Positions 4,013 through 46,898 of a stretch of 64,000 nucleotides of DNA are shown here, one piece after another. A program made the translations under genes and the position numbers. The stretch is from Harmothoe impar (lineage: Eukaryota > Annelida > Polychaeta > Phyllodocida > Polynoidae). The notes under the pieces are model-generated. The model was not told the DNA's origin. It worked only from the letters and a program-made list of their open reading frames with translations, and searched no databases. The DNA lies in contig OX381705.1 of the NCBI GenBank assembly GCA_947462335.1, forward strand, positions 37,781,570-37,845,569. Reading direction: 5' to 3'. Position 1 is the first letter of the stretch. Each line of letters opens with the position of its first letter.

Positions 4013-4180
4013 TGTTGTGTACATGCATCTGTGACGTCATCACTTTGTGTGAGGACCGCATGGGCAACGTACGAGGACATGATCAGAGCTATCTACATGT
4101 TGTATTTGTATCATCTAAGATTACAGTAAAGTACAGACATATATGTTCTACAAGTCACAGAATTCATCACATTCTTTACA
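4013..4180 (+). repeat. Probable 3' LTR of the Gypsy element with polypurine tract
   Basis: A polypurine tract (AAAGAAAGGGGGA, about 4000-4012) is followed at once by TGTTGTGTAC. A short LTR beginning TG and ending CA at about 4180 fits. The end is inferred from the TTTACA/TTGG junction only, because the 5' LTR is outside the window. Confidence 0.6.
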
Positions 4181-7864: not shown

Positions 7865-8465
7865 GGACGTCCTGTTAAATCAGAGGAGGTCCTGTTAAAT
7901 CAGGGGACGTCCTGTTAAATCAGGGGACGTCCTGTTAAATCAGGGGACGTCCTGTTAAATCAGGGGATGTCATGTTAAATCAGGTGACGTCATGTTAAAT
8001 CAGTGGACGACTTGTTAGGTTAAATCCGGTACTCAAGTCGTGTTGGTTAAATCCAGGAGCAGGTTAAATCCAGTCAATGCTCAAAGTGTTGGTTAAATCC
8101 AGGAGCAGGTTAAATCCAGTCAATGCTCAAACTGTTGGTTAAAGCCAGGAGCAGGTTGAATCCAGTCAATGCTCAAGTTGTTGGTTAAATCCAGGAGCAG
8201 GTTAAATCCAGTCAATGCTCAAGTTGTTGGTTAAATCCAGGAGCAGGTTAAATCCAGTGATCAACTCAATGTTACATCAGGACTTCAGGACTATGGTCCG
8301 TATGGACATACCCGGTAGGCCTATGTGTCTGGGGAGGACCCAGCATCTGGGGAGGACCCAGCGTACCCGGTTCAACTGTCTGGGGAGGACCCAGTGTACC
8401 CAGTTCAACTGTCTGGGGAGGACCCAGTGTACCCATCTCAACTGTCTGGGGAGGACCCAGCAACA
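7865..8465 (+). repeat. Three tandem arrays inside the TRIM-like element
   Basis: Array A (about 7865-8020) has a 20-bp unit GACGTCCTGTTAAATCAGGG in about eight copies. Array B (about 8030-8265) has a 46-bp unit built on GGTTAAATCCAG in about five copies. Array C (about 8328-8462) has a 33-bp unit CTGGGGAGGACCCAG-plus in about four copies. Short frames across array C are a by-product of a unit length divisible by three. Confidence 0.85.
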
Positions 8466-21679: not shown

Positions 21680-22140
21680 GTCCAAGTCATGTGACCAAAA
21701 GGGGGGCGTGGTCTGTCTATTATCTATATTATGCAAATGAGGGAGGGGTTCAGGTCACGTGACCAAGGGGGTGTGGTCTATTTTCCAAATAAAGAGCGCT
21801 TCCGGTCACGTGACCAAGGGGGTGTGGTCCTATTATGCAAATGAGGGGGTCACGTGATCCATTATTATGCAAATGAGGGAGTCACGTGACCAAATGGAAG
21901 CCTCTGATTGGCTGGTGATCAAAGGGGCGTAGTCTTTTATGCAAATGAGGGGGCCACGTGATCAAGGGGGCTTGGCCTATTATGCAAATGAGGGGGTCAC
22001 GTGACCAAATGGCGGCCTCTGATTGGCTGGTGATCAAGGGGGCGTGGCCTATTACGTAATTATGCAAATGAGGGGGCGTGGCCTATTACGTAATTATGCA
22101 AATGAGGGGGTCACGTGACCAAATGGAGGCCTCTGATTGG
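21680..22140. promoter_or_regulatory. TIR array of octamer, E-box and CCAAT-type motifs
   Basis: The block ATGCAAAT (octamer), GAGGGGG, GTCACGTGAC (E-box palindrome), GCCTCTGATTGGCTG (reverse CCAAT box) is repeated. I count about seven ATGCAAAT and about seven CACGTG. Such combined sites bind POU, bHLH-Zip and NF-Y factors in animals. That this array drives transcription is inference. Confidence 0.55.
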
Positions 22141-22339
22141 CTGCAGGTCGCTTGAGTAATAAACAGTACTTAAGCATAGTCCCGTTCCGATACATACTAT
22201 ACTACTTCCATCTGCATAAATAATGCTATTTACTTCTAGATTCACCGAGTCAAAGACCATATGGGCATACATGTTTTAATGCAGATAGCATCAGGGAGAG
22301 GACAAGTTCTCTTGATACAGATATTATGTCTTTTTGCAT

Positions 22340-24060: not shown

Positions 24061-24363
24061 GTCACCCTGACTGACCACCACCCAGGGGTCAGTCCTCATG
24101 TACACCTGACTGATGGTTCTCGAACGCGGCCAAACATGTCAGACTAACTCCAAGTTACGGGGGAGTTATTTTCAGCTTCAATCACGGTTCAACTCGGTAT
24201 TTCTTCCTAATTTGTGTGCACATAGTACATCAACCACTCTGGACCATTTTGGTATAGCTTGTTGTATAGCAAGTTAATACTCTCCCGGAGATTCCAAAAA
24301 TATTACCGACCACCGGAACGCCAGACAGAAACGCACCGAGATTCCTACAAGCTGAATGTCAAA

Positions 24364-27300
24364 ATGACAAACTTTGGCAGACACAAGAAAGATGGCAAGT
24401 CCCCAGGTAAAAGCAAAAAATCAGGAAACAGCAGCCCAAGGCGCACACGATCTGCAACAAAAAATGGTGAGGACCGATCAAAATTGTCACAGATCAATGA
24501 AAAAAGCGAAGAAATTATTGGATCACAAAGTAGATTCTCCCAACCCACCCGCAATCCCAAGGGCGACAAATATTCAGCGGATCATGCGCAGCAGTCCATT
24601 TCCGCCCACCGCCAATTTGCCCAAGACAATGAAGAAAACGTCGCGCTTGATGCCACTTTAACGCAGGAGAGCATCATCCTGGACTCTGACTCATCTGGAG
24701 ACGAAGAAAAAGGTAATAACACCATAATTGAATGTATCGTTGCCTGTAAACAAGGACATGGAGACAGCGAAGCGCCGCCCTCACTCGGTGATTCGCAACA
24801 TGACGCCATGACACCTCTCGCGCCAAGTGAGAAATCGCGAGATGCATCCCATAATAGTCGCCGCTCCCCAGACGCTGTTTACACCGATCTCCCCGTACCG
24901 GTGCTAAACGCTAACAACAGAGCTGACTCTTATTTAAAGATGCTTCAAAATAAGAACCATCCCAATACTGTTCACCTTGACCCCCAGAACAGTACAGCCA
25001 CCCTGACCCATTATGACTCAAACAGCATGGGAGAAGCAGGGTATGAACCACACCCAGCATCGAACACGCCCGGGAAACCGGAAGCTGGCTTCAAAATCAA
25101 AACAATTACACCGACAGACGGTGAGATTGACTGGGACCAAGACGGTCCTGATGAGGACTTCATTACTCTAGGGGAAGGCAGAGAAGCAGGTGATATAGTT
25201 TATCCTCCACATAGTGACTCAAATAAAGCTGAGAATGAACACAACACTGCTGCCAAACCTCAAACCTTCCCTCCTACCGCTGTGGGCACTCCGCTGAGAC
25301 ACGCAATCAAGCAGTCACACACACACACAAGCTCGTCAAATCCTGAAGAGGGCTTGACAGCTTGTGCTATATCTTCTCGTCCTGCCGAGGACACAATTGC
25401 AAAAAGTGTTATATCAGGCCCTGAAGAGGACCAACCCCGCCCCCGGCTCATTACAACCCCGTCCACCCCCGGTCCTGATGAGGACCAAGTTATAAAGGCC
25501 AACAACGCAGCCAGTAGGCTGCATATAAATAGTCCTGTCGAGGGCACAACTATAAGTCAGTCTACTAAACATGCCAAATCTGATAGTCCTGACGAGGACC
25601 AACTGTCATTCCAGAGAGGCATCACTGACAACTCCCCAACTAGGCACGGATCAGAGGACACCATTACAGAAAGTCACGACCCTAACCAAAGCCCAACCGG
25701 TCCTGAAGAGGACCCCTCATATGGGGTAAGCTTAGTGAACCATGGTCCTGATGAGGACTTAAATGGTGCACGAACCTCTACCACAGAGAATCATCACATT
25801 ACCCCCACCACCGAGAAGAAAGAAAACAGAGCAAAAAAAGAAACAGCAAAGCATCCATGCCGTGGTGATGTACAACAGAAAAACTACCAAGATTTATCAA
25901 GTGAACTGGACTCCAGCTTCCAAAGCATTCAAAGCATAGACAGTGAGGACAGTGCCTACTCCAGTAAGCTACAAGGGGACTCTACCTACAGGAACAGAAA
26001 GGACAGCGACAACAGTGACAGCAGCAAGTCCCAGTCAATCTTCTTGGGATTCAGCCCCTTCAAAAACAAGTCACAGCTACAATTTGAATGCATACAGAAT
26101 GATATTGAAGGGGTACTATCTCAACCCAACAAGATAGTCATGACAGATGAAGAAGAGGAGGAGGACGAAATAAGCCCCGCCCAACCGGAAAGGAAAGCAG
26201 CCCAACAGAAAGAGTCACTACTGCCCTGCCCCGATGAGGGCTTCAATTTGCCTACAGTTCACCCCAAACAGCAACCGCTCACTGACATGATGAACCTGAG
26301 TCAAAACTCTGTCCTACATGATCACAACTATGAGCAACAATCGGCAGACAAGAACAAGCAAGTAAATGAAACATCAACCTCCCCACCAGATGGGAAGACA
26401 ACGTTTTATGAATACCCAGAAGATCAGTACAATCTTAACAGCTCTGGATACATCAACATGAGCAACATGAGCAACTCGGAATCCCTATTTGCTAACCAAC
26501 TTGAAACACAGGCCAAGAAAGGGGAATTCTTTGAATCAACACCAATCAAACCAAAGCCCAAGAAATGCAATACCCAACCACTCTTCCTCTATATAGAAGC
26601 TACTCCAGACACCAGTCCAGAGCTGGATGACTCACTCCACTCACCTAAATTGACACCCAAGACCAAAGATAAACCTGCTGCAACGCACACAGGGGAACCC
26701 ATAACCTCTCAAAACCTACAAGACGCGCAGGTGCTCAGCTTCACCCCCGAAAGCTATGATGACACAACAGGCATCACTCTATATAAAGCATCACAAATAG
26801 ATATTGCTGATATAGAGGAACAAGACAGGACACAACACCAACACAGCCTGCTAAATTCAGAGGATACTTCCCATGTGCCAGTAACAAGTCAATATGTAGG
26901 ATATACTGCGGACACAGATAAACAACTGAAGCAAAAAAGAGATGCGTCGCAGCCATCCGGCAACAACACTGAGCTGCCCCCTAATACCCTAGCGACTGAG
27001 GCCGGAACAAATAAAGAAGGGACAAGTACAGTCACGCTGAGAGGAGGAGAAATAGAACACACCAGCGGCACCGCAACTGATTCACAAGCTGCATTGTCCC
27101 CCATAAATCAAATCATAGGTCTAAATATGGGGATACTGATGGGCAAAATGGAGAAGGTACAACAGGCAATGTGTCAGAACTCCAAGAAAGTGGAGGGACT
27201 GGGTGATGACATTACAACCACTATCGTGCGACAACTAGAGCCAATATCCAACAGCATCGAGGAAATTAAAAATCTAGCACAAGACAACAAGTTAAAGCTT

Positions 27301-29904
27301 GACACGGTGCAACACATGTTAACGGCAACTAAAGACAGGGTCTCGGCGCTAGAAAATGGGAAGCAAAAGCAAGACAGCAAAATTAAGAAAATCGCTGACA
27401 GGGTAACTGAAGCAAATGACATCTCCAATCAAAAAATATCGAAGCTTGCAGTGACTGTTGGTAAGGTTACAGAGTTAGTGGTAGAAAAATCAGAGGGCTT
27501 AGGAGAAAGAATTACTGACAATGAGGACAGCCTCCAATCATTGAAGAAACAATTGAAAGAAAAAGCAGCGCTGATAGACACGCTGACGTCTGAAGTCAAC
27601 TCACTATCTGCCACAGTCTCCACCATATCAAAACAGCAATCTGCATGGGAAATTGACTCTAAATCATTAAAGGATCTACTGCAGAAACAAGCTAAATTGA
27701 TGCAGAGTTTTGATGGCCATGGACAGACAACAAGCAGCGGAAACGGTGAAAATGAAAATGAGATTCTCACCAAAATTAAAACCTGCAACGCATTGATCAA
27801 AGCCCAGGAATGTGACATACTTAAACTGTCCAGAGAAAACAAGATCATACAAGACAAAATCAAGAGCGCTAACTCAAGGCCAGCCAAAAGCAACACCTTC
27901 ACAGAAGCAGTCCAGAACAAGGATACTGAAAAGTTTAAAGATCCTTCCATAAAAAGAAACTTAGTGTTAACAGGTCTAAAAGAACACAAAGGGGAGAACC
28001 TTTTCATAAAAGTGTTTGAAATTGCAGAAAAAATCCACTCACCACTGAGAAATTGTGACATCATCCATATCCATAGGATGCGCCACCCAAAGGATCCTGC
28101 TCCCTCCGACACTATCACTCCCATCAGGATATGCTTTAACAACTACTCTGCGAAATTTATTTTTGAGGAAGCTGCAGCAAGACTGAAGCATGAGAATGAC
28201 CTAAAGCATATGAATCTGGCTGCAGAAGAATCCAGGCAAACTAGACAAAAAAAAAGGGACATGCAGTTAATAACTGCCTACAATGGCATGAAGGGTATAA
28301 ACGCTGCGGTATGTGAAGACAAAATGCGAATCGCCAACCAGATATACTCACTTGACACTATCAGCACAGTAGAGCAAAAATATCTCCCCCCACTCCTCAG
28401 AATGAGAAGCCTGATCCAAGTAGAAGAGATTCCTCACGCAGGTGGGGATCCAACCAACTCCATGACTGAAATGAGAATCAGATATGAGAGGATGATAGAA
28501 GAAATAGAAGGTAAAGGACGCGCAGTGCATAGTGAAAAAGAAAAAGAGAGTAAAAACAACCATGTCAACTCAAAGAATAAAAAGCCAGAAAGCCAGGGAA
28601 GACACAATGCAGAAGCAAGCCACACTGAAGGAAGTGCTGAACCCGCCACTCAGACCCCACTACCTATACAGCAAGTCACCACGGAAGTTGCATCGAACAC
28701 GCCCAAACCACGTCACTACAGCGAAGACACACTGCTTACCACGGTTACCGCGTCGAACGCAACCCCCACGACTTCCGGTTTAGAAGCACGTGTAAACAAT
28801 CAGAATCCCCGCCAATCCAACGAAAACTTGGAAAAAAGTGGATCTCTATGTACACCTGCCACAATAACGCAAGTGACCGATGTAAACGGTAAGATAAGCA
28901 TGAGAGAAACGAACAAACTAGTCATTTATGCGGGCAAACATGCATATCTAAGCAACTTTCATAGCGCGCCCTTCATGTATGTCACGGACGATGGAGAAGA
29001 GATCCACTTTGAAAGCGTAGAGCAGGGTTACGCCTGCATGAAGGCCAGATTCAGTAGAGACAGGATAAGAGAGAGGGATGTCATGGATGAACATAGACCA
29101 TGGAGAATTAAGGAAATAAGTGGTGAAATCAGGTTGACTCATCCTCATAGATGGTACTCATACAGAGAGAGACTCATGCATAGACTGCTCTTATGTAAAT
29201 TCAAAACACATGAGGCATATAGCAGGAACCTGATTCAAACCTTCCCAAAAACCCTAGTGGAAGGAACATATTGCAAAGAGTGGGGCGGCGGTCATGTTGT
29301 TTGTGATGACTCATATGACTCTGGTTTATTTGAAGGCTCGAATCTACATGGACGCATACTTATGAAAGTACGGGACCAACTGAGACACGACGCCACTTCT
29401 GCAGCAGCCCCGCAGCCCAAGCAACACACAGCAGCGGAAAAAGAGAGGTTGGCTGAACAGGAGGTGTACAAAAAGAAGTCCACTCCAGATATCAAGTCGG
29501 GAAGCAGGCGCTCCTCCTCCACACCCCCTCCCCCCAACCACACCAGGCACAGTAGGTACAGAACGAATGAGCACAAGTACCAAACACAACTTGACAGTGG
29601 CTCCAGAGGTTCCAATAGAACTGGTAGAACCTCGGATTCTAGGAGAAATATTGGAAAGGATCTGGATTGGCGCTCCAACAAATCACGCGAGTATTACAAC
29701 TCTAACTCCAGCAGGCACCGGTCAAGAGATAGAAGCAGGACAGACAGAAGCAGATCAGATAGAAGTACCGAGCGCAGAGACAGGAGCGCTAGAAGACAGA
29801 GAGAGAGTAGAGGAATACCCAGACCCCCGGGACTGACAGAGCTCAGGAAGTATAACCAAGACAGCCCAACTCCACGCTTCACGACACTCAGCAGGAGGCA
29901 GTAG
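24364..29904 (+). CDS. LINE ORF1: coiled coil, RRM-like region, NADAR domain, RS tail, 1846 aa
   Basis: I start at ATG 24364 (AAAATGACA). Upstream in-frame sequence to 24259 has no ATG. The order is a low-complexity polar half (1-900) with ten P-x-E-(D/G) repeats at about residues 261-626, then coiled coil (about 917-1113 and 1139-1173). An RRM-like nucleic-acid-binding region follows (about 1195-1300, IKRNLVLTGLKE ... IRICFNNYSAKFIF), as in other LINE ORF1 proteins. A NADAR (YbiA-like, DUF1768) domain spans about 1518-1675, with YLSNFHSAPF, FESVEQGYACMKA and LVEGTYCKEWGGG. The tail is Arg-Ser-rich (RSRDRSRTDRSRSDRS). The NADAR family acts on ADP-ribose-linked substrates. Its role here is unknown; one option is countering host ADP-ribosylation. 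The stop lies 2 nt from the next start. Confidence 0.85.
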   Translation: MTNFGRHKKDGKSPGKSKKSGNSSPRRTRSATKNGEDRSKLSQINEKSEEIIGSQSRFSQPTRNPKGDKYSADHAQQSISAHRQFAQDNEENVALDATLTQESIILDSDSSGDEEKGNNTIIECIVACKQGHGDSEAPPSLGDSQHDAMTPLAPSEKSRDASHNSRRSPDAVYTDLPVPVLNANNRADSYLKMLQNKNHPNTVHLDPQNSTATLTHYDSNSMGEAGYEPHPASNTPGKPEAGFKIKTITPTDGEIDWDQDGPDEDFITLGEGREAGDIVYPPHSDSNKAENEHNTAAKPQTFPPTAVGTPLRHAIKQSHTHTSSSNPEEGLTACAISSRPAEDTIAKSVISGPEEDQPRPRLITTPSTPGPDEDQVIKANNAASRLHINSPVEGTTISQSTKHAKSDSPDEDQLSFQRGITDNSPTRHGSEDTITESHDPNQSPTGPEEDPSYGVSLVNHGPDEDLNGARTSTTENHHITPTTEKKENRAKKETAKHPCRGDVQQKNYQDLSSELDSSFQSIQSIDSEDSAYSSKLQGDSTYRNRKDSDNSDSSKSQSIFLGFSPFKNKSQLQFECIQNDIEGVLSQPNKIVMTDEEEEEDEISPAQPERKAAQQKESLLPCPDEGFNLPTVHPKQQPLTDMMNLSQNSVLHDHNYEQQSADKNKQVNETSTSPPDGKTTFYEYPEDQYNLNSSGYINMSNMSNSESLFANQLETQAKKGEFFESTPIKPKPKKCNTQPLFLYIEATPDTSPELDDSLHSPKLTPKTKDKPAATHTGEPITSQNLQDAQVLSFTPESYDDTTGITLYKASQIDIADIEEQDRTQHQHSLLNSEDTSHVPVTSQYVGYTADTDKQLKQKRDASQPSGNNTELPPNTLATEAGTNKEGTSTVTLRGGEIEHTSGTATDSQAALSPINQIIGLNMGILMGKMEKVQQAMCQNSKKVEGLGDDITTTIVRQLEPISNSIEEIKNLAQDNKLKLDTVQHMLTATKDRVSALENGKQKQDSKIKKIADRVTEANDISNQKISKLAVTVGKVTELVVEKSEGLGERITDNEDSLQSLKKQLKEKAALIDTLTSEVNSLSATVSTISKQQSAWEIDSKSLKDLLQKQAKLMQSFDGHGQTTSSGNGENENEILTKIKTCNALIKAQECDILKLSRENKIIQDKIKSANSRPAKSNTFTEAVQNKDTEKFKDPSIKRNLVLTGLKEHKGENLFIKVFEIAEKIHSPLRNCDIIHIHRMRHPKDPAPSDTITPIRICFNNYSAKFIFEEAAARLKHENDLKHMNLAAEESRQTRQKKRDMQLITAYNGMKGINAAVCEDKMRIANQIYSLDTISTVEQKYLPPLLRMRSLIQVEEIPHAGGDPTNSMTEMRIRYERMIEEIEGKGRAVHSEKEKESKNNHVNSKNKKPESQGRHNAEASHTEGSAEPATQTPLPIQQVTTEVASNTPKPRHYSEDTLLTTVTASNATPTTSGLEARVNNQNPRQSNENLEKSGSLCTPATITQVTDVNGKISMRETNKLVIYAGKHAYLSNFHSAPFMYVTDDGEEIHFESVEQGYACMKARFSRDRIRERDVMDEHRPWRIKEISGEIRLTHPHRWYSYRERLMHRLLLCKFKTHEAYSRNLIQTFPKTLVEGTYCKEWGGGHVVCDDSYDSGLFEGSNLHGRILMKVRDQLRHDATSAAAPQPKQHTAAEKERLAEQEVYKKKSTPDIKSGSRRSSSTPPPPNHTRHSRYRTNEHKYQTQLDSGSRGSNRTGRTSDSRRNIGKDLDWRSNKSREYYNSNSSRHRSRDRSRTDRSRSDRSTERRDRSARRQRESRGIPRPPGLTELRKYNQDSPTPRFTTLSRRQ
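25144..26241 (+). repeat. GNNG-loop hairpin cluster in ORF1, ten copies
   Basis: Copies start at 25144, about 25334, 25379, 25419, 25471, 25532, 25586, 25699, 25744 and 26228. The core is (G)GTCCT, GNNG, AGGAC(C). Stems vary: GGTCCT/AGGACC, GTCCT/AGGGC (G-U pair), GCCC/GGGC. The copy at 25334 extends to a 10-position stem GTCAAATCCT/AGGGCTTGAC with one mismatch. In protein the copies read P-D/E/A/V-E-D/G. Confidence 0.8.
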
Positions 29905-29906
29905 CC

Positions 29907-31697
29907 ATGGGAGACAGCCCTGACACGACTCAACATGACCCACCTCAAGCTACCAATACCCAGACTGCACATGTTATACCCACCCAAATAGAAAACTGCC
30001 TTCTTCTAGGAGACGGCCGCATAACACAGGAGATACATGACAGAATTCAGGGCACCCTTGATTTGACTCTGTACACTGTCAGCAGAAGTGAAATAAAAAT
30101 CCTGGACTATCTCGAAATTTTTTCTGATGAAAAATATAAGAACATTAATTTTGATTTAATTATTTTTTCAATTGGAATCTACAGCTTGATAAACGAGTCA
30201 GAGGGCGAGCCTCTTTTCAAGAAGGGGGAGGAGGAGGTTCACATGACCATCATGAATCAGTACTATGAGTTGATGGACCAAGCTTGGAGTGTACACCCAA
30301 AGGCAAAAATTCTGGTAGCCACAATTTACTCAGTGGAACTCCACAAAGTCAGCTACTTGTACGGGCAGCAAGAAGATCAAGTGGAACTGGAAAGAGTACT
30401 GCAAAGACTAAACATCGAAATTGGTAATCTCGGATACTGGATGGACACAATAATCCCCCACCTAGAAGGGTTGATAAAAGACAATAAAATGAAGAAAAAA
30501 TCAGCAAAGTCAGACTACCAGTACAAGCAACTAAGGAATGGTATACTACCGGGATTACCACTTCAGATCCGAGTTGCAAACAAGTTGATAAAATGCATAA
30601 GGGGGATGGAAGACCGCATGAAGGAAGAGGAATACACATGGCTAGAATCCACTATGGACAGACAACAGTCAGATGCTGAAAATACAAGTATGAACGTTGA
30701 AATGGATCAAGATGTGAGCCCAACCAACAGCCAATATGATAGTGCCCCAGAGCCGGCCATCCCCATGGAGGAAGATGACACCTGGAAGAACCCTAGAGGA
30801 ACCACCACTATCATATTCCCCAACCTTCCTGATATTGATAGCGCACAAGAAACACCAACAAGTACCCCCACCAAGCCTGACTCTCCTAATGAAGACAGAA
30901 ACTGCAGGGATAGTAGCGAAACAGAACCCTACTCTAGAATGAAACAACATGAAAAGCAACAGTCAGCCCTGACCTCCAGTGATGAAGGAAACTACAGGGT
31001 AAAAAGAACTACCCCATCACTGGAAGATGCAGATTGTAAAACAAAAGAAAGGTCCAAAACAAAAAGAGAGAGACAGCACAGCGGTAGCAGTAGTAGTAGC
31101 AGCAGCACCTCGTCCACAACGTCCAGCTCAGCCAGCTACTGCTCCCACAGCACCCGGATAATATCCTCCAGTGACAGCCCCACCTCTCAGTCAGGTGTGA
31201 AGAAAGGATTCACTAAAGACAGAAATAAAAACAAGAAGAAGAAGTGCAGAGCACGCTCATACTCTTTCTACCCCGAAAAAGCAAAGCCTCAAGTGTATCT
31301 CCACAATATTGACCAAAGTACACCTGAAGACTACACAGCCCACAAGCAGACAGCAGATTACTGTGACCAGTACACGCAGACTGAAGTGGATCAAACAAGT
31401 CCTCCATGTCCTGTACAATCCGCAGTGTACACCATCCACAGAAAAGTAGACCAAGAACCAACCAGATATTTTGCATTCCCAAGTGTAAACAAGTCTTTCA
31501 TCGCTCCTCAAGACAACATTAAATTATTCCGAGAAAACACGGACCCAAACGCCCCCCCACAGAACCAGCAAACAGTTGAATATGCTGAAAACATCCGTAT
31601 TATAGTTGGCACCCATGCCACCTTCTCCGATCTACAGCTTGAGACGGGTCTGTTGACAAGAGGGCAGAACCTGACTCCACATGACATGGAATTCTGA
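29907..31697 (+). CDS. LINE ORF2: SGNH-hydrolase-like fold protein, 596 aa
   Basis: The start ATG 29907 is in a strong context (GCCATGG) and 2 nt after the ORF1 stop. Residues about 30-225 have an alpha/beta pattern like the SGNH esterases found in ORF1 of CR1 and L2 LINEs: CLLLGDGRIT (block I position), FDLIIFSIGIYSLI (block III), AKILVATIYSV, then a final RNGILPGLPLQIRVANKL where the family has its Asp-x-x-His block. The catalytic Ser of GDS is Gly37 and the GxND and DxxH motifs are absent, so it is probably not an enzyme. The rest is disordered: acidic, Ser-rich (SSSSSSSTSSTTSSS region at about 395-410), Lys-rich at about 435-450. The fold call rests on pattern, not a search. Confidence 0.7.
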   Translation: MGDSPDTTQHDPPQATNTQTAHVIPTQIENCLLLGDGRITQEIHDRIQGTLDLTLYTVSRSEIKILDYLEIFSDEKYKNINFDLIIFSIGIYSLINESEGEPLFKKGEEEVHMTIMNQYYELMDQAWSVHPKAKILVATIYSVELHKVSYLYGQQEDQVELERVLQRLNIEIGNLGYWMDTIIPHLEGLIKDNKMKKKSAKSDYQYKQLRNGILPGLPLQIRVANKLIKCIRGMEDRMKEEEYTWLESTMDRQQSDAENTSMNVEMDQDVSPTNSQYDSAPEPAIPMEEDDTWKNPRGTTTIIFPNLPDIDSAQETPTSTPTKPDSPNEDRNCRDSSETEPYSRMKQHEKQQSALTSSDEGNYRVKRTTPSLEDADCKTKERSKTKRERQHSGSSSSSSSTSSTTSSSASYCSHSTRIISSSDSPTSQSGVKKGFTKDRNKNKKKKCRARSYSFYPEKAKPQVYLHNIDQSTPEDYTAHKQTADYCDQYTQTEVDQTSPPCPVQSAVYTIHRKVDQEPTRYFAFPSVNKSFIAPQDNIKLFRENTDPNAPPQNQQTVEYAENIRIIVGTHATFSDLQLETGLLTRGQNLTPHDMEF

Positions 31698-31873
31698 TCG
31701 TCCTACAAAATGTACATAAGTTGCGAAGGCCTATGCCACAGCATTTCTTTCTTTAAAAGTTGACTAGAGTAGTATCTACACACCTGTGAAAATTAAAATG
31801 TACTATGTAGCCACAACCCATTCTGACGCTACAATCACCACATCAGGATTACGCCAGGCTTACCGAGGCTGTA

Positions 31874-32820
31874 GGCCTGTAGAGGCTATAGTAACTTTGA
31901 TACAACAGCCAGAGGTATTTTTAGAATAGAATGTACTCGTCTTAAATATATATTTGTCTGAAATAATAGGCCTGAAGAGGCCACCCAGACAAACAACAAT
32001 AACACATAATGTGACACTACAAATAAAACAAAGGGCCTGAAGAGGCTGCATGACAAGAAACCCTCTTTTAATGTCCCACCCCATTGGGTTCCTACAAACT
32101 GACATTTCCACACCACATACAACCTATGTAAACTCTGATATAGATTGATTACAGAATGTTTCACAGGGCCTGCTGAGGCTGAGTATTCTTGAATATAAAA
32201 TCTAACGTAGGTTGACCACCAAATGTTGCATCACAGGGCCTGCTGAGGCTGGGTAACGTACCACATGATAAATAAGTAAATATAGTTTGGGTGACGGGCC
32301 TGATGAGGCCATGATTTTATATCTCAACCTACTACTTTGCAAACAATAACACAACACAAGGGGCCTGAGGAGGCTGAGGATATCCATTAGCTACATAGAC
32401 ACCAGAGGTAACTCAACACAATGGGCCTGGTGAGGCTGTGGTATCCTGAAAAGTAACCCACCTCCATCACCACTTCATTTGAGGGACCACACTGATGTGC
32501 CCAGCCGCCATAAATTAAACTACACTGTAGTGGAAGGCAGTGGCCAGATCAAGTGGTAGTAATACAAGAAGTGACACAATACATTGGGCCTGATGAGGCT
32601 GTGGTATCCTGAGAAGTAACCTACCTAGGAGACAACCGTGGACGGATTAAGCGGTAGCAATGCACGTCAACGCAACATGAACCGCACACTCACACAGCAA
32701 AGGCCTGATGAGGTCAGCCCCCCCCCATGAAATATTAACTCATACCTTTGGACGCTAAAAGGTACAGCAAAACACTGAACTTCTAACAGGGACATGAATA
32801 ACAAAGGGCCTGCTGAGGCT
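31874..32820 (+). repeat. GNNG-loop hairpin cluster in the ORF2-ORF3 spacer, eleven copies
   Basis: Copies at 31874, 31969, 32034, 32167, 32237, 32297, 32362, 32424, 32587, 32702 and 32807, spaced 60-163 bp. The consensus is GGCCT, GNNG, AGGCY. Loops are GTAG, GAAG, GCTG, GATG, GAGG and GGTG. Stem ends include GGCCT/AGGCC, GGCCT/AGGCT and GGCCT/AGGTC, all paired if G-U is allowed. The DNA between copies is unrelated and non-coding, so this is not a simple tandem array. Confidence 0.85.
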
Positions 32821-33201
32821 TATCTCTCCACAGGTAGAATAGTGTGTCTACAACTCAGGAAGAAAAACTCTACACACACTCCAGTAGACAGTAGCAGTTC
32901 ATTACACTGTTTTTGGATGGACTGATAATCTTTCTCAATACTCATTTTATATCCTAAAAAGTAAAATCTCCTGATCAGGAATGACTGGAATGTTTATTAC
33001 ATATCATGTCTTTACTTTAATAACGATTAACTAATAATGTCTAATGTAGCAAATAGCAACATGCTGTTGCTGACATATCCTACCTTACTCCACATGATGA
33101 TACATGATTGGACAGCACACGTCTTGACGCACTTTCTTCTACTCACCATGATGATTCGTAACTTTATATCTACGAAAACTAATTACTTTATTTTCTAACC
33201 G

Positions 33202-33468
33202 ATGAAGCTGAAATACTCCCCAACAAATGCAAAGATGTCAATCAACACCCCAGGAGCAGGAACTAGCTCCAGGGGATCGAGTGGAGGAGGGACCAAGCTA
33301 GATCTCGGAACTACTATACCGTATCAAGCTGTCATATTTTTCATTTATATCATCACTTCTAACAAGATCATTTTTCTTAGATCTGTCACTCAAAGGTTCG
33401 GGAAGGAAAGGGAAAGTTATCATTCTCACACTATGTTTAATCATTGGGAATCACTTGATGGATTATAG
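33202..33468 (+). CDS. Small ORF overlapping the ORF3 start, 88 aa
   Basis: ATG 33202 to TAG 33466-33468. Its end overlaps the ORF3 ATG (33458) in ATGGATTATAG. The product has a Gly/Ser-rich first part and one hydrophobic segment (AVIFFIYIITSNKIIFL, about residues 43-59) that could span a membrane. No family recognised. It may serve only to bring ribosomes to ORF3, or may be chance. Confidence 0.35.
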   Translation: MKLKYSPTNAKMSINTPGAGTSSRGSSGGGTKLDLGTTIPYQAVIFFIYIITSNKIIFLRSVTQRFGKERESYHSHTMFNHWESLDGL

Positions 33469-36364
33469 TAAGGATTTCCAAGTTCCCAAAATGAAGGGGT
33501 TCACAGTCGCTCATTTAAATTGTAGAAGTATTCATGGTAAAAAGTGTAAATTTATTGAGATAAAACCAACACTAAATAATGTGGATTTCGTCGCCTGTAC
33601 CGAATCTTGGCTCACAGAGAAACACGATAAGGCTCTTCTGTCCTGGTCTGGCAAGAGCTACCACAGGCTGGACAGGGATGGCCTAGCAGGTGGAATAATT
33701 TGCTATATCACGGATAGAATTTATAAATATTCCTCTGTAAATAAAGACCTGTCGTGTATCTCTGATGACATAGAGTGTCTCTCCATCAATATTGATATCC
33801 CCAACAATAGAATGATGACGTTAACCACTGTTTATAAACCCCCTAGAGCTACAGCATATAATTTTATAGAATGTTTGAAAAAGCTCTACACTAAGAAGAG
33901 AGAAAACTGGTTTCTGGGAGATTTCAACATAAATTTTTTGGATAATAATGATTCTGAAACTGAGGCTCTAAAGAATTTCTGTCGAGATTACAATCTAAGG
34001 TGGCTTTTTTCTGAAATTACACGCCCCAATATTGATGGAGTTCACAACGTCGGAACCTGTATTGACAATATTTTAACTAACTGTAAATATGTACTATCTA
34101 AGCATGTAGCGCCAATATTGATAAGTGATCACCTCCCAATATACGCCTGTCGTAAAAAGACCCCTAACCCCAAGGAAATTGTATCATACCAAGGTAGATC
34201 ATACAAAAACTACAGCAAAGATTCTTTTCAGGAATTTTTATTAAAACAAAATTGGGAAAATCTTTACACGGCTATAAATATAGATGATAAATGGGATATG
34301 GTAATAGTCAAAATTAAGGAATACTTGGATGAAGTTGCCCCCATTCGCCTGATTAAATACAGGGACTACAAGGTTCAATGGATGGACAAGGAAACAGTCA
34401 AAGTCATTAAACAGCGAAATGAGTTCATGCAAAAGTTTATTAAACATAAAAATGTCGAAGATCTGAGACAAGCCAAACTCCTTCGCTGCCGTATTACCCC
34501 AATGGTACGTAAAGCTAAAGGTAAATATATCCAAGATAAGTTAAACACATACAAAAATAATTCACGTAAATTCTGGGCAGTGATGAACTCATTTTTCAAG
34601 GCCCCAAAAACCCACCCCCCTCCGGCCCTCATTGACAAAGATGGCGCTACTGTTGAAAACAATGCTGAGTACATCAATAATTTTTTCAGTAACATTGGCA
34701 AAGATCTCTTTGAAGCCAAAGGTATACAGGTTGAACCATTTGTGGATCCTGATGAGGGTTATTTAGAAACACAAGAGGATGATACCTTTTCATCTTTTGA
34801 TGAAGGCGATATGGTTAAGATTATAAAACAAATTGATATTACAAAGCCTTCTGGTGTAAAAGACATATCAGCAACAGTTATTCGAGACGCCATGCTGATT
34901 TGCTCGCGTCAGTTTCATCATATTGTTATGTATTCTGTCATGTCTGCTTCCCTACCGAAGGATTGGACAAACGCCATCATTTCCCCTCTCCCTAAGTCTG
35001 GTAATTTAAAAGATGTATCAAATTGGAGGCCCATCTCCATTTTGCCCATCCCTAGCAAAATTTTAGAAAAATTAATTCAAAAACATTTCACGGAATTTTT
35101 AAATAATCGTGCGTTACTGTCCAATACTCAGTATGGTTTTAGACAAGGATTTAGTACAGCGGAAGCTATTTTTGACTATACTAAAGATCTATATACAGCC
35201 CGCAATAATCACAAATATGTAGCTTCTATTTACATCGACGTGAGGAAGGCGTTCGATTGTATAAGCCATAACCTCCTCCTCCACCATTTAAAACAGTCTA
35301 AAATCAATAGAACTATGTTAATGTGGTTTCATGCCTATTTAAGCAACAGACGCCAAAGTACAAAGGTTGACGGAGTTATTTCTCAGGAGAAAGTTGTCCA
35401 TTATGGCGTTCCGCAGGGTTCCGTCCTTGGTCCAACTCTCTTCATTTTCTTTGTCAATACTCTTATGCAAACCCCGCAATTCTGTTCCATAAAGATGTAT
35501 GCTGATGATTTGGTACTCTATTCAGAATCCAAATATCCAGCGGTGGCCTTAAGAAACCTGCAAAAAGACGTAAATATGCTAGACAAATTTTGTAACAATT
35601 TAGGCCTAACAATTAATCACAATAAAACCAAATTGGTTTGGCACTGCGCTGATCATAACTATAAGTACTGCGCCAACCGTAATCTATTCATAGGAGATAA
35701 ATTAATTAAGGAAGTCAACTCCTTTTCATATTTAGGCGCTATTATTGACAGGCCTTTAACAATGAAACCTTTCATCAACAAAATGACTACGGGTACTAAT
35801 TATCTGTCGTTTAAATTTGCCAGATTAAGGTTTCATCTGTCTGATGATCATGCCACTACTCTATACAAATATGCAGTTACACCTCATTATGATTACTGCT
35901 CATATTTGGTAGATGCTGGCACTGACGATCAAATCAGAAAACTACAAGTTACACAAAACAGAATGCTCAGATGTATTAGGCGTGTTAGAGTATGGGAGGA
36001 ACATATAAATGATCTACATGCCCTCTGCGAAATCCCCCTCTTATCCTCAAGACGGAAAGAACTACTCATGTCGCTCATGTATAATAAATGTAAGAAAGCT
36101 CCTCCCCCACTCACTAGAAACAGAACCCGTGGGGATCACAAGTTAAACTACCCCCTACCCTTTCCACACACTTCGAAATTTAAACGCAGCCCGGTTTATA
36201 GAGGCATTCAGATTTGGAACTCCCTCCCATACGACATGCAAAAAGCTGAAACAAAAGCAACTTTCAAGATGAAAACAAAGAAATGGTTCAAGACCGACAT
36301 GACCGGCAAAAGGGAAGCCTTACTGCAACTGAGGCAAAGAGAAAGGCGTAGACGGAGAAATTAA
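33458..36364 (+). CDS. LINE ORF3: endonuclease-reverse transcriptase, 968 aa
   Basis: ATG 33458 is the first in-frame ATG (MDYSKDFQ...). An internal ATG at 33491 is also possible. The apurinic-type endonuclease (about residues 12-230) shows HLNCRSIHG, ACTESWL (catalytic Glu), VYKPPRA, LGDFNIN (Asp, Asn) and ISDHLP (Asp-His). The reverse transcriptase (about 480-760) shows ISPLPKSG, NWRPISILP, YGFRQGFST, SIYIDVRKAFDCISH (first Asp), GVPQGSVLGP and the catalytic MYADDLVLY. After it come a thumb-like region and a basic end (RQRERRRRRN). There is no RNase H. The protein nicks target DNA and copies the element RNA there. One GNNG hairpin copy lies inside it at about 34745-34760. No stop or frameshift is seen. 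Confidence 0.93.
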   Translation: MDYSKDFQVPKMKGFTVAHLNCRSIHGKKCKFIEIKPTLNNVDFVACTESWLTEKHDKALLSWSGKSYHRLDRDGLAGGIICYITDRIYKYSSVNKDLSCISDDIECLSINIDIPNNRMMTLTTVYKPPRATAYNFIECLKKLYTKKRENWFLGDFNINFLDNNDSETEALKNFCRDYNLRWLFSEITRPNIDGVHNVGTCIDNILTNCKYVLSKHVAPILISDHLPIYACRKKTPNPKEIVSYQGRSYKNYSKDSFQEFLLKQNWENLYTAINIDDKWDMVIVKIKEYLDEVAPIRLIKYRDYKVQWMDKETVKVIKQRNEFMQKFIKHKNVEDLRQAKLLRCRITPMVRKAKGKYIQDKLNTYKNNSRKFWAVMNSFFKAPKTHPPPALIDKDGATVENNAEYINNFFSNIGKDLFEAKGIQVEPFVDPDEGYLETQEDDTFSSFDEGDMVKIIKQIDITKPSGVKDISATVIRDAMLICSRQFHHIVMYSVMSASLPKDWTNAIISPLPKSGNLKDVSNWRPISILPIPSKILEKLIQKHFTEFLNNRALLSNTQYGFRQGFSTAEAIFDYTKDLYTARNNHKYVASIYIDVRKAFDCISHNLLLHHLKQSKINRTMLMWFHAYLSNRRQSTKVDGVISQEKVVHYGVPQGSVLGPTLFIFFVNTLMQTPQFCSIKMYADDLVLYSESKYPAVALRNLQKDVNMLDKFCNNLGLTINHNKTKLVWHCADHNYKYCANRNLFIGDKLIKEVNSFSYLGAIIDRPLTMKPFINKMTTGTNYLSFKFARLRFHLSDDHATTLYKYAVTPHYDYCSYLVDAGTDDQIRKLQVTQNRMLRCIRRVRVWEEHINDLHALCEIPLLSSRRKELLMSLMYNKCKKAPPPLTRNRTRGDHKLNYPLPFPHTSKFKRSPVYRGIQIWNSLPYDMQKAETKATFKMKTKKWFKTDMTGKREALLQLRQRERRRRRN

Positions 36365-36902
36365 CCATTGCGCTAAAATCTCCATATACGAACCACTATT
36401 TAACTGTGAACCCCTGTAACAATGTAACAACTTATATGCTATATTATGGGACAATTTATATATCATGGGATTAACAACTTAATTTTCTCATCCATTTGTA
36501 TAAAAACCGCCTGTTATAATTCTACGTTACTGTTAACAGCTCGTACATTTACGACCAAAGTCACAGACCCAGCTTATGTGAGCCCAACAAAACCATCTAA
36601 TTCCTAGGTAGGATAACGAACAACCATTACCTGTACCGCTCACCTTCATCCTGTCTTATATTAAGGAAACTGTTACTCAAGTACTATACATACCTACAAA
36701 TGTGTCTTGTCTGTACCTGAAAATACAAAAAGCGATACTCATGACAAAACAATGTTCATATACACCCTGACCTGGAACGAGCACTTGTACATTATTCTGC
36801 TGGACTATTCACATGTGAGCTGATAAGTGGCAAAAAACTTATTTAAAGAAGAACATCCCCCTGGAAAGGCGATGAGATTAAATAAAAAAAAAAAAAAAAA
36901 AA
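36365..36902 (+). other. LINE 3' UTR with poly(A) tail
   Basis: About 520 bp of AT-rich non-coding sequence after ORF3, ending GATTAAATAAAA with A19 at 36884-36902. The AATAAA-like end may act as the polyadenylation signal. Confidence 0.75.
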
Positions 36903-37330: not shown

Positions 37331-37336
37331 CACTGG

Positions 37337-38024
37337 AGTAGTATAGTATGTATCGGAACGGGACTATAGTTAAGTACTGTTTATTACTCAATCGACCTGC
37401 AGCCAATCAGAGGCCTCCCTTTTGGCGGGAAATTCAAAAGCAGCCAATGAGAGGCCTCCCTTTTGGCGGGAAATTCAAATAGGTCACGTGACCGGAAGTG
37501 ACCTACTTCCGGTCACGTGACCTTTGGGCGGGAAATTCAAATAGGTCACGTGACCGGAAGTGACCTACTTAAGAGGGTCACGTGACCACCATGTTGGCGG
37601 GAAATTCAAATAAGTCACGTGACTGGAAGTGACCTACTTAAGGGGGTCACGTGACTACTAGGTTGGCGCGAATTTCAAAATAAGTCACTTGAGATTTTTA
37701 TGGATAAATAAATTTTAAAAAAGAAAAAAAGCAAGCTGAAAGCTTGCTAAAAAATAATTTAAAAATGTAGCTCTTTTTTTTAGGGGGGGGAGGGGCACTC
37801 TAGGGGGCACTCTTTAAGATGCATGGGGGGGGAGGGGGGGAGGGGAAGGGTTTTTTAAGAGTGAGACTCGCTTCTCTGCCCTCTCTTTTAGAGGGCAGAG
37901 AGGCGAGTCTACTGGTTCGTCTACTTACAATGAAATGTATCATGATTGCGTTTATGATGATGTGCATCATGATGTGACTATCTTACAACTTTATAAGAAA
38001 TAAGCAAGGTCTCTCTCCTATACA
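37337..38024 (+). repeat. Left TIR, about 688 bp
   Basis: Matches the reverse complement of 46201-46892 to the inner border CTCTCTCCTATACA, with only a few differences (for example 37344-37347 and GACCTGCAG against GACCGGCAG). It contains a self-complementary CTGCCCTC...GAGGGCAG stem at about 37877-37905. Confidence 0.93.
37410..37690. promoter_or_regulatory. Array of E2F-, ETS-, E-box- and CCAAT-like sites in left TIR
   Basis: TTTGGCGGGAAA, a classical E2F site, occurs twice exactly (37421, 37461) and three more times in close variants (37526, 37592, 37663). GTCACGTGAC occurs four times exactly, with two GTCACGTGACT variants. ACTTCCGGT/ACCGGAAGT ETS-type sites adjoin several E-boxes. AGCCAATCAGAG and AGCCAATGAGAG are CCAAT boxes. 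Role as an S-phase promoter or replication control region is inference. Confidence 0.6.
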
Positions 38025-46200: not shown

Positions 46201-46892
46201 TGTATAGGAGAGAGACCTTGCTTATTTCTTATAAAGTTGTAAGATAGTCACATCATGATGCACATCATCATAAACGCAATCATGATACATTTCATTGTAA
46301 GTAGACGAACCAGTAGACTCGCCTCTCTGCCCTCTAAAAGAGAGGGCAGAGTCTCACTCTTAAAAAACCCTTCCCCTCCCCCCCTCCCCCCCTCCCCCCC
46401 CCCCATGCATCTTAAAGAGTGCCCCCCAGAGTGCCCCTCCCCCCCCTAAAAAAAAGAGCCACATTTTTAAATTATTTTTTAGCAAGCTTTCAGCTTGCTT
46501 TTTTTCTTTTTTAAAATTTATTTATCCATAAAAATCTCAAGTGACTTATTTTGAAATTCGCGCCAACCTAGTAGTCACGTGACCCCCTTAAGTAGGTCAC
46601 TTCCAGTCACGTGACCTATTTGAATTTCCCGCCAACATGGTGGTCACGTGACCCTCTTAAGTAGGTCACTTCCGGTCACGTGACCTATTTGAATTTCCCG
46701 CCCAAAAGTCACGTGACCGGAAGTAGGTCACTTCCGGTCACGTGACCTATTTGAATTTCCCGCCAAAAGGGAGGCCTCTCATTGGCTGCTTTTGAATTTC
46801 CCGCCAAAAGGGAGGCCTCTGATTGGCTGCCGGTCGATTGAGTAATAAACAGTACTTAACTATAGTCCCGTTCCGATACATACAATACTACT
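46201..46892 (-). repeat. Right TIR, about 692 bp
   Basis: Inverted copy of the left TIR. It starts at TGTATAGGAGAGAG and ends ACTACT directly before CACTGG. C-tract lengths near 46375-46400 differ from the left arm. Confidence 0.93.
46540..46825. promoter_or_regulatory. Mirror array of the same sites in right TIR
   Basis: Inverted copy with TTTCCCGCCAAAAGG, GTCACGTGAC, ACTTCCGGTCACGTGAC and CTCATTGGCTGC. It lies about 70 bp from the element end, oriented to read in either direction. Confidence 0.6.
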
Positions 46893-46898
46893 CACTGG

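Follow-up and report, generated by a model that had tools for sequence, protein, structure and literature searches.

A GNNG-loop hairpin repeated along a three-ORF LINE of Harmothoe impar as a dispersed cis-acting RNA element

Single-stranded RNA viruses, MS2 among others, carry many stem-loops that share a recognition motif and are read by the coat protein, according to the passages of PMC6281560 on this subject. GACG tetraloops act in retroviral packaging RNA, as set out in part of PMC516450. Among LINEs, the 3'-tail stem-loop of ZfL2-1 and ZfL2-2, two stringent elements of the L2 clade, is read by the EN-RT linker, and the corresponding passages of PMC4176376 indicate that both stem and loop are involved. 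Additionally, a YbiA-family NADAR domain has been described in ORF1 of Tx1 LINEs of Crassostrea gigas and in Gypsy elements of Ectocarpus (PMC12477816); a repeated hairpin is not mentioned in the passages of that paper on NADAR-bearing elements.

Here, we analyzed a 64-kb stretch of DNA from the annelid Harmothoe impar, referred to as the window, which contains a LINE with a hairpin repeated in coding and non-coding parts. In each unit, a GNNG tetraloop sits on a short stem of pyrimidines paired with purines (N-CCU/AGG-N', N-CCC/GGG-N' or N-CUC/GAG-N'), and the unit is present 21 to 22 times in two nearly whole elements and less often in the parts read of others. Our data give good support to the conclusion that this unit acts in cis as an RNA hairpin within the LINE sense transcript, that it is selected as a structure and that its stem class differs between subfamilies. 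Judged from the sequences, evolution appears to preserve the RNA fold as such, with the loop held constant and the stems swapped in matched fashion.

The LINE and its hairpin copies in the window

The element spans about 24.2-36.9 kb of the window on the plus strand, as do all features listed below, and comprises three ORFs, a non-coding spacer and an A-tail. ORF1 (24259-29904, 1881 codons open) carries the first hairpin cluster and is followed by ORF2 (29907-31697, 596 aa), the start of which lies 2 nt past the ORF1 stop. The second cluster is located in the 1.76-kb ORF2-ORF3 spacer (31698-33454), which is non-coding with stops in all three frames. ORF3 (33455-36364) encodes an endonuclease-reverse transcriptase (RT) with Pfam matches to RVT_1 and Exo_endo_phos_2, and a 3'-tail stem-loop, CAUC..CCU GGAA AGG.GAUG, is found at 36854-36874, separate from the GNNG copies. 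The endonuclease-RT ORF, the A-tail and 49 genomic matches in its own genome identify the element as a LINE; no target-site duplication of at least 8 nt was found in the stretch tried. Repeats 86 nt and 700 nt long, both direct and inverted and with 93-97% identity, are present on both sides of the LINE (22121-22206, 37336-38024 and 46201-46893) and are perhaps the ends of DNA transposons.

Toward the C-terminal side of ORF1, residues 1560-1709 (window 28936-29385) form a NADAR (YbiA-like) domain (Pfam E 2.9e-20), which also weakly matches, in sequence, NADAR and YbiA proteins of solved structure. The model of the ORF1 middle region is of low confidence (pLDDT 57) and too weak to show an RNA-binding fold, and the low-confidence ORF2 model (pLDDT 51) gave weak SGNH/GDSL-hydrolase-like matches, a hint at most. 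No CCHC zinc knuckle was detected in ORF1-3 by pattern scan, nor by Pfam at E values up to 0.1. Searches with the ORF1 protein found no relatives. The ORF3 protein yielded 78 matches outside the genome, the best of which, P0004 (67%), carries DPDEDY at the place of DPDEGY in the window.

The hairpin core CCTGNNGAGG occurs in 21 exact copies in the window, all within 25147-34757. Nine are located in ORF1: core 1 (GGTCCT GATG AGGACT, 25147-25156), core 2 (25342-25351), core 3 (25381-25390), core 4 (25420-25429, with a C.A mismatch at the fourth pair), core 5 (25474-25483), core 6 (25534-25543), core 7 (25588-25597), core 8 (25702-25711) and core 9 (25747-25756). The spacer holds eleven, namely cores 10 (31876-31885), 11 (31971-31980), 12 (32036-32045), 13 (32169-32178), 14 (32239-32248), 15 (32299-32308), 16 (32364-32373), 17 (32426-32435), 18 (32589-32598), 19 (32704-32713) and 20 (32809-32818), and core 21 (34748-34757) lies in ORF3 between endonuclease and RT. 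The first-pass annotation had assigned a stem of its own to each of ORF1, spacer and ORF3, always with a GNNG loop, which we confirm. It had also counted at least 22 copies; 21 are exact, and the 22nd, a degenerate copy in ORF1 (CCCCGATGAGGG, 26229-26240), matches a covariance model built with this site included. We grade it as doubtful, because it takes another structure when folded alone. A search of the window with this model recovered the 22 sites from which it was built and nothing further (next best 12.8 bits, E 0.64). At 8329-8460, the window contains CTGGGGAGGACCCAG units, mostly at a spacing of 33 nt, an unrelated repeat that resembles the hairpin motif.

The 21 copies compare to a mean of 1.61 and a maximum of 4 in 100 dinucleotide shuffles of the 64 kb, and no other 4-gap-4 word is as frequent in the LINE as CCTGNNGAGG, the next being poly-A (9). 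A GNNG loop closes 8 of the 23 perfect tetraloop stems of at least 5 pairs within the LINE, compared to 1 of 99 elsewhere in the window. When the codons of ORF1 were permuted synonymously 5000 times with the protein fixed, 1.1 hairpins were obtained on average and 6 at most, against the 9 observed; the ORF1 protein therefore does not explain its hairpins. At the P-x-E-[DG] motifs of ORF1, CCT is used in 9/10 and GAG in 10/10 cases, compared to a usage of 24% and 39%, respectively. The spacer hairpins occupy all three frames, with stops present. Together with the covariation reported below, this synonymous constraint and the non-coding copies bear out the initial proposal of a nucleic-acid element rather than a protein motif. 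Nearly all ORF1 hairpins lie in a single reading frame (P-x-E), as does the ORF3 site, and a protein-level role therefore remains compatible with the data. Among coding hairpins of the window and of further loci (C6, L120, L121, L123, L129 and L130), the P-x-E/P-x-G frame is used despite another stop-free frame, with the sole exception seen at position 10862 of C6, in its NADAR part.

In a context of 160 nt, the core stem is predicted at P of at least 0.5 in 15/21 copies. Three cores cap long interrupted stems of unrelated sequence, namely core 2 (stem at about 25326-25366), core 6 and core 11, which begin at 25342, 25534 and 31971 (z -8.2, -4.2 and -4.1). Thus, 3/21 hairpins reach z<=-3 compared to 9/1500 controls, the remaining 18 being above -2.5; with other flank lengths and mononucleotide shuffles the test was weaker (P 0.001 to 0.08). 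For the copy near 25334, a stem of ten positions had been reported; the stem does extend, but with one A.C mismatch, and an interrupted stem of 17 pairs is the fold of minimum energy (z -5.8). Conservation stops sharply at the stem edges of the ORF1 hairpins, and their flanks are random. The flanks of the spacer hairpins are slightly related, and two locally duplicated unit pairs are 78% and 86% identical, so that the DNA between copies, described as unrelated throughout, is so in ORF1 but not everywhere in the spacer.

When the window is taken by itself, 20/21 copies form the fourth pair, compared to 46% by arm exchange, an excess that comes wholly from differences between regions; covariation within ORF1 and within the spacer was not significant in the window alone. 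Over the 22 window sites, the covariation score is higher than in all 500 of 500 shuffles, but pairs with changes in both arms are no more numerous than in shuffles (2 versus 2.5). The matched stem changes noted earlier are thus visible between classes in the window, and within regions only once relatives are added.

The core of a hammerhead ribozyme combines a CUGANGA-type sequence plus GAAA with three helices. We rejected this candidate, which the hairpin resembles in its CUGANGA-like sequence, as Rfam gave no hammerhead match up to E 1 in 14 kb and only 96 of the 150 CCT-class hairpins described below have an A as the first loop N. The only Rfam match was the histone stem-loop, at a sub-threshold 18.6 versus 34 bits.

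Related copies, covariation and stem classes

Relatives were drawn from one genome, that of H. impar itself (1.51 Gb, 736 contigs). The 49 ORF3 matches correspond to about 47 copies after we merged pieces, with 57-88% identity excluding the window itself, and the best 30 of these about 47, window included, were examined with 1.5 kb flanks. ORF1 was read in a minority of copies: 4 of the 12 pieces placed for ORF1 match it by tblastn, and the search with the window's diverged proteins missed ORF1 in the other 8, L130 included.

In the 1.5 kb before ORF3, the 30 loci contain 153 sense and 13 antisense GNNG hairpins where 6.8 are expected (four Watson-Crick pairs, any stem; the near copies L098, L099 and L101 count three times). 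Together with the window, where 21/21 copies are on the plus strand, this establishes the strand bias that the first-pass annotation had proposed to check. In 18/30 copies, none of 200 shuffles reaches the observed hairpin count in this stretch. The second nearly whole element, C6, carries 21 hairpins in the 16 kb read (ORF1 11, spacer 10) and none in antisense, and the array thus recurs in another long family member; the C6 read ends in early ORF3, and the copy is frame-shifted in ORF1 and has a stop in ORF3. The ORF3 site word is present in 23/30 copies, window included, and hairpins are also found in the 3'UTR of eight copies (L094, L095, L103 and L111-L115). L116 and L119 have kept the ORF3 site with no array in the 1.5 kb examined. 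Among the pattern matches in the same genome, hairpins at spacer/ORF1 distances lie upstream of further ORF3 copies at G000:C1:61055248-61063087 and G000:C20:22018031 (both minus).

The spacers of the window, L091 and L092, whose ORF3 is 87-88% identical to that of the window, align only over about 270-350 nt before ORF3; beyond that stretch they share just 33-nt scraps, with 8 to 10 hairpins each. Since the spacers are unalignable and the arrays present, copies turn over while the array persists. The spacers of L098 and L102 contain young tandem arrays with units of about 53 nt and shared flanks. In the L098 array (7 units), the two loop N vary more than the flanks (identity 0.52 versus 0.83); in that of L102 (6 units), they are only slightly more variable (0.83 versus 0.89).

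Covariation was assessed by shuffling, R-scape not being used, in 150 distinct CCT-class hairpins from 20 copies (155 rows; 156 counted, one at a piece edge dropped). The fourth pair forms in 145/150 compared to 65.9 (maximum 87) in shuffles, and its types are GC 59, TA 58, AT 19, TG 6, GT 2 and CG 1. By region, it forms in 71/72 spacer hairpins versus 56.7 (maximum 64), in 42/45 ORF1 hairpins versus 36.1 (P 1e-4) and in 12/12 3'UTR hairpins versus 6.8 (P 7e-4); within the ORF3 site, fourth-pair covariation was not significant. The fifth pair forms in 107/150 versus 89.6. The seventh pair is rarer than in shuffles (38 versus 48.5 of the 150), as if stem length were limited. Because the hairpin sequences are kin, these P values are not strict, and the argument rests on the stem switches and on how many types of pair occur.

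Other stems were detected as top gapped words in the 1.5 kb before ORF3, with pairing not required. CCCG..GGGG was the top word in L098 (15), L102 (12), L103 (5) and L111 (7), with 5 further CCC units in the 3'UTR of L103, and CTCG..GGAG in L117 (6). The resulting 46 CCC/GGG hairpins in four copies (one row at a piece edge dropped) and 6 CTC/GAG hairpins in L117 have perfect stems and a GNNG loop, with none in antisense. Whole stems thus switch while GNNG is kept, and the covariation suspected from the window alone is found in the family.

In the coding copies, the amino acid follows the stem. The CCC-GNN-GGG coding unit of L129, which matches ORF1 and is that of L098, reads TPDGA, with Gly replacing Glu, and those of L130, placed as ORF1 of L113 without a tblastn match, read TPGGD, TPDGD and NPEGE. 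Two ORF1 units of C6 with a G-C fourth pair read P-E-E-A, not P-x-E-D. At the ORF3 site, where a CCC stem would force a change of Glu, CCT..AGG is retained in most CCC-class copies, L098 included; in L102, this site has lost the GNNG loop. The spacer of L113 is of the CCT class, yet L130 is CCC. Both L113/L130 and the ORF3 site of L098 indicate that CCC and CCT can mix in one element. A quick ORF3 tree, in which L100 and L107 are unlabelled since their match to the related L098 starts only at positions 944 and 1728 of the latter, implies 3 stem changes among hairpin-bearing copies (minimum 2 for three states) and 6 once the array-free state is counted; a single CCC origin is compatible with its starred branches.

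Genome-wide, GGTCCTGNNGAGGACC is not enriched (11 versus 12 for the reversed control), and the array is therefore a property of the LINE and not of the genome. The pair pattern gave 1330 versus 933 genome-wide, and among the matches listed most are ordinary tandem repeats. The same pattern occurs in 10 stretches of viral and 36 of bacterial contigs. In viral contigs, 30 stretches with a single GGTCCTGANGAGGACC were found, none with ORF3 and no paired GTCCT-type match, as well as two weak RT loci. Of 76 loci collected from these contigs, the four richest are tandem repeats with shared flanks.

Copies without the array and the 3'-tail stem-loop

Six copies (L104-L106 and L108-L110) form a clade (SH-aLRT 100) that lacks an array over the 1.5 kb covered. 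From a point about 395 nt ahead of ORF3 through to the tail, L104 and L105 share 99.66% identity, and upstream of that point they no longer match; L108 and L109 align mainly from about 380 nt before ORF3, and the alignment between L106 and L110 begins only at the start of ORF3. In the region 1.5-6.5 kb upstream of L104 and of L108, a tblastn search with the window's diverged proteins detected neither ORF1 nor ORF2. From the four ends compared and the two copies probed upstream, the clade looks to consist of ORF3-only elements, which could make it useful as a natural deletion control. About 2.4 kb before ORF3 of L104, there are two CCT-class hairpins in sense orientation, spaced by 51 nt (L132 sense positions 4088 and 4139). 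They fall outside the part common to L105 and are not part of a 51-nt tandem repeat of the genome, to which only 15 nt match, and they sit badly with calling the clade hairpin-free.

All six copies have lost the ORF3 hairpin site and retain the 3'-tail stem-loop. In L104 and L105, the site reads CCTGGCGAAGAC, in which GAG has become GAA, so that P-G-E-D is kept and the hairpin lost. Overall, the tail stem-loop was recognized by eye in 21/27 matched tails, the array-free clade included, and its lower stem covaries (CATC/GATG, CACT/AGTG and CACC/GGTG). In tails of the form CAUC-CC-CCU NNNN AGG-C-GAUG (window and L091-L110), the inner CCU/AGG equals the GNNG stem and the loop differs. As the tail stem-loop survives without the GNNG array, the latter seems tied to a role linked to ORF1/ORF2 and not to recognition of the tail by the RT.

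Possible roles and relation to known systems

With a probability of roughly 0.5, the hairpins are dispersed RNP-assembly sites bound by a protein encoded by ORF1 or ORF2, where we infer both binder and function. The RNA-binding protein from ORF1 (or ORF2) would recognize the looped-out G's together with the stem, and many sites per RNA could nucleate RNP assembly and tag the RNA as self. Changes of the stem between subfamilies would then track, or drive, the specificity of the binding protein. New copies may arise by local tandem duplication, after which the flanks decay and the hairpin is kept; this origin is partly shown by the young units of L098/L102, and elsewhere the spacers are unalignable. 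More tentatively, the array might be a self-identity code, in which each subfamily presents a private stem in about twenty copies to its own ORF1/ORF2 protein and the RNA of rivals is not packaged. If so, a switch of stem would mark a step in the arms race or speciation of RNA parasites, and the code would be dropped by elements that drop ORF1/ORF2. The mixing of CCC and CCT in one element is awkward for a strictly private code, and mixed stem classes together with the hairpins upstream of L104 weaken both this reading and that of an element protein in general.

Since short stem-loops read by cellular proteins are common, the sites could instead be landing sites for host RNA-binding proteins acting in export, stability, germ-line localization or translation, with subfamilies using different host factors. 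The same covariation, stem classes and sense bias would be expected, but stem switches and the apparent joint loss with ORF1/ORF2 fit an element protein better, and we consider a host factor possible but rather unlikely. More doubtful is a role in translation, with the spacer array bringing ribosomes to ORF3 and the ORF1 array slowing or coupling translation of ORF1 and ORF2. Such a role would suit the 11/21 copies in the long spacer before ORF3 and the ORF2 start just past the ORF1 stop, and is opposed by the copies inside ORF3 and in the eight 3'UTRs; translation control and reverse transcription are both less favoured, because the hairpins occupy ORF1, spacer, ORF3 and 3'UTR and a separate tail loop persists.

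That the units are functionless selfish palindromic mini-repeats or minisatellites spread by duplication is very unlikely, as compensatory stems, retention of GNNG while flanks vanish and whole-stem switches are unexpected under neutrality, even though young L098/L102 units, local duplications in the window spacer and many unrelated tandem repeats of the same word in this genome and in bacteria would agree with it. If ORF1 and ORF3 shared a short acidic motif at the protein level (P-x-E-D/G), with the DNA likeness as a by-product, the common frame of the ORF3 site and nearly all ORF1 copies would be accounted for. As a full explanation, such a motif is refuted by the non-coding copies and the synonymous constraint; moreover, the stem stays intact where Gly replaces Glu and Ala replaces Asp, and L104/L105 retain P-x-E though their hairpins are lost, which leaves this reading hardly tenable. 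Equally improbable are double-stranded DNA sites for a dimeric protein with half sites CCT/AGG: the stem is indeed a DNA palindrome, but a strand-symmetric reading would be expected, and it is G..G, not C..C, that stands on the sense strand (21/21; 153 versus 13).

The binding of an element-encoded protein to dispersed sites would bear on the cis preference of LINE proteins, the basis of which is to our knowledge still an open question. A multi-copy hairpin with a stem that varies by subfamily within one genome provides ready matched and mismatched substrates for it. In the part of the open-access literature searched, to some extent with comparators as the aim, we recognized no LINE whose interior carries a dispersed array of covarying hairpins, and we know of none.

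Retroviral psi signals contain other GNNG-type loops as well and are present in one or few copies near the 5' end, where they are read by a CCHC-bearing Gag. The LINE resembles retroviral packaging and dimerization hairpins, as far as the cited passages describe them, in that a GNNG-type tetraloop closes a short stem of a retroelement RNA, and differs from them in its about 20 copies and in ORFs with no CCHC motif. Like L2-clade LINEs, it has its own 3'-tail stem-loop; unlike the single 3'-end stem-loop of the ZfL2 elements in the passages considered, the GNNG arrays are distributed over ORF1, spacer, ORF3 and 3'UTR, separate from the tail loop. Its NADAR-bearing ORF1 is shared with the Tx1 LINEs of Crassostrea gigas, as these are portrayed in the cited passages. 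Random flanks in ORF1 and covariation set the array apart from a minisatellite, although the young L098/L102 arrays do share flanks. Finally, the 21 stem-loops in the window and 21 in 16 kb of C6, with compensatory change, are reminiscent of the dispersed packaging signals of single-stranded RNA viruses. In contrast to MS2-type signals, which are variable around the motif in the account consulted, the core of the window is identical in 21 copies, the stem differs by subfamily, and the host of the array is a LINE.
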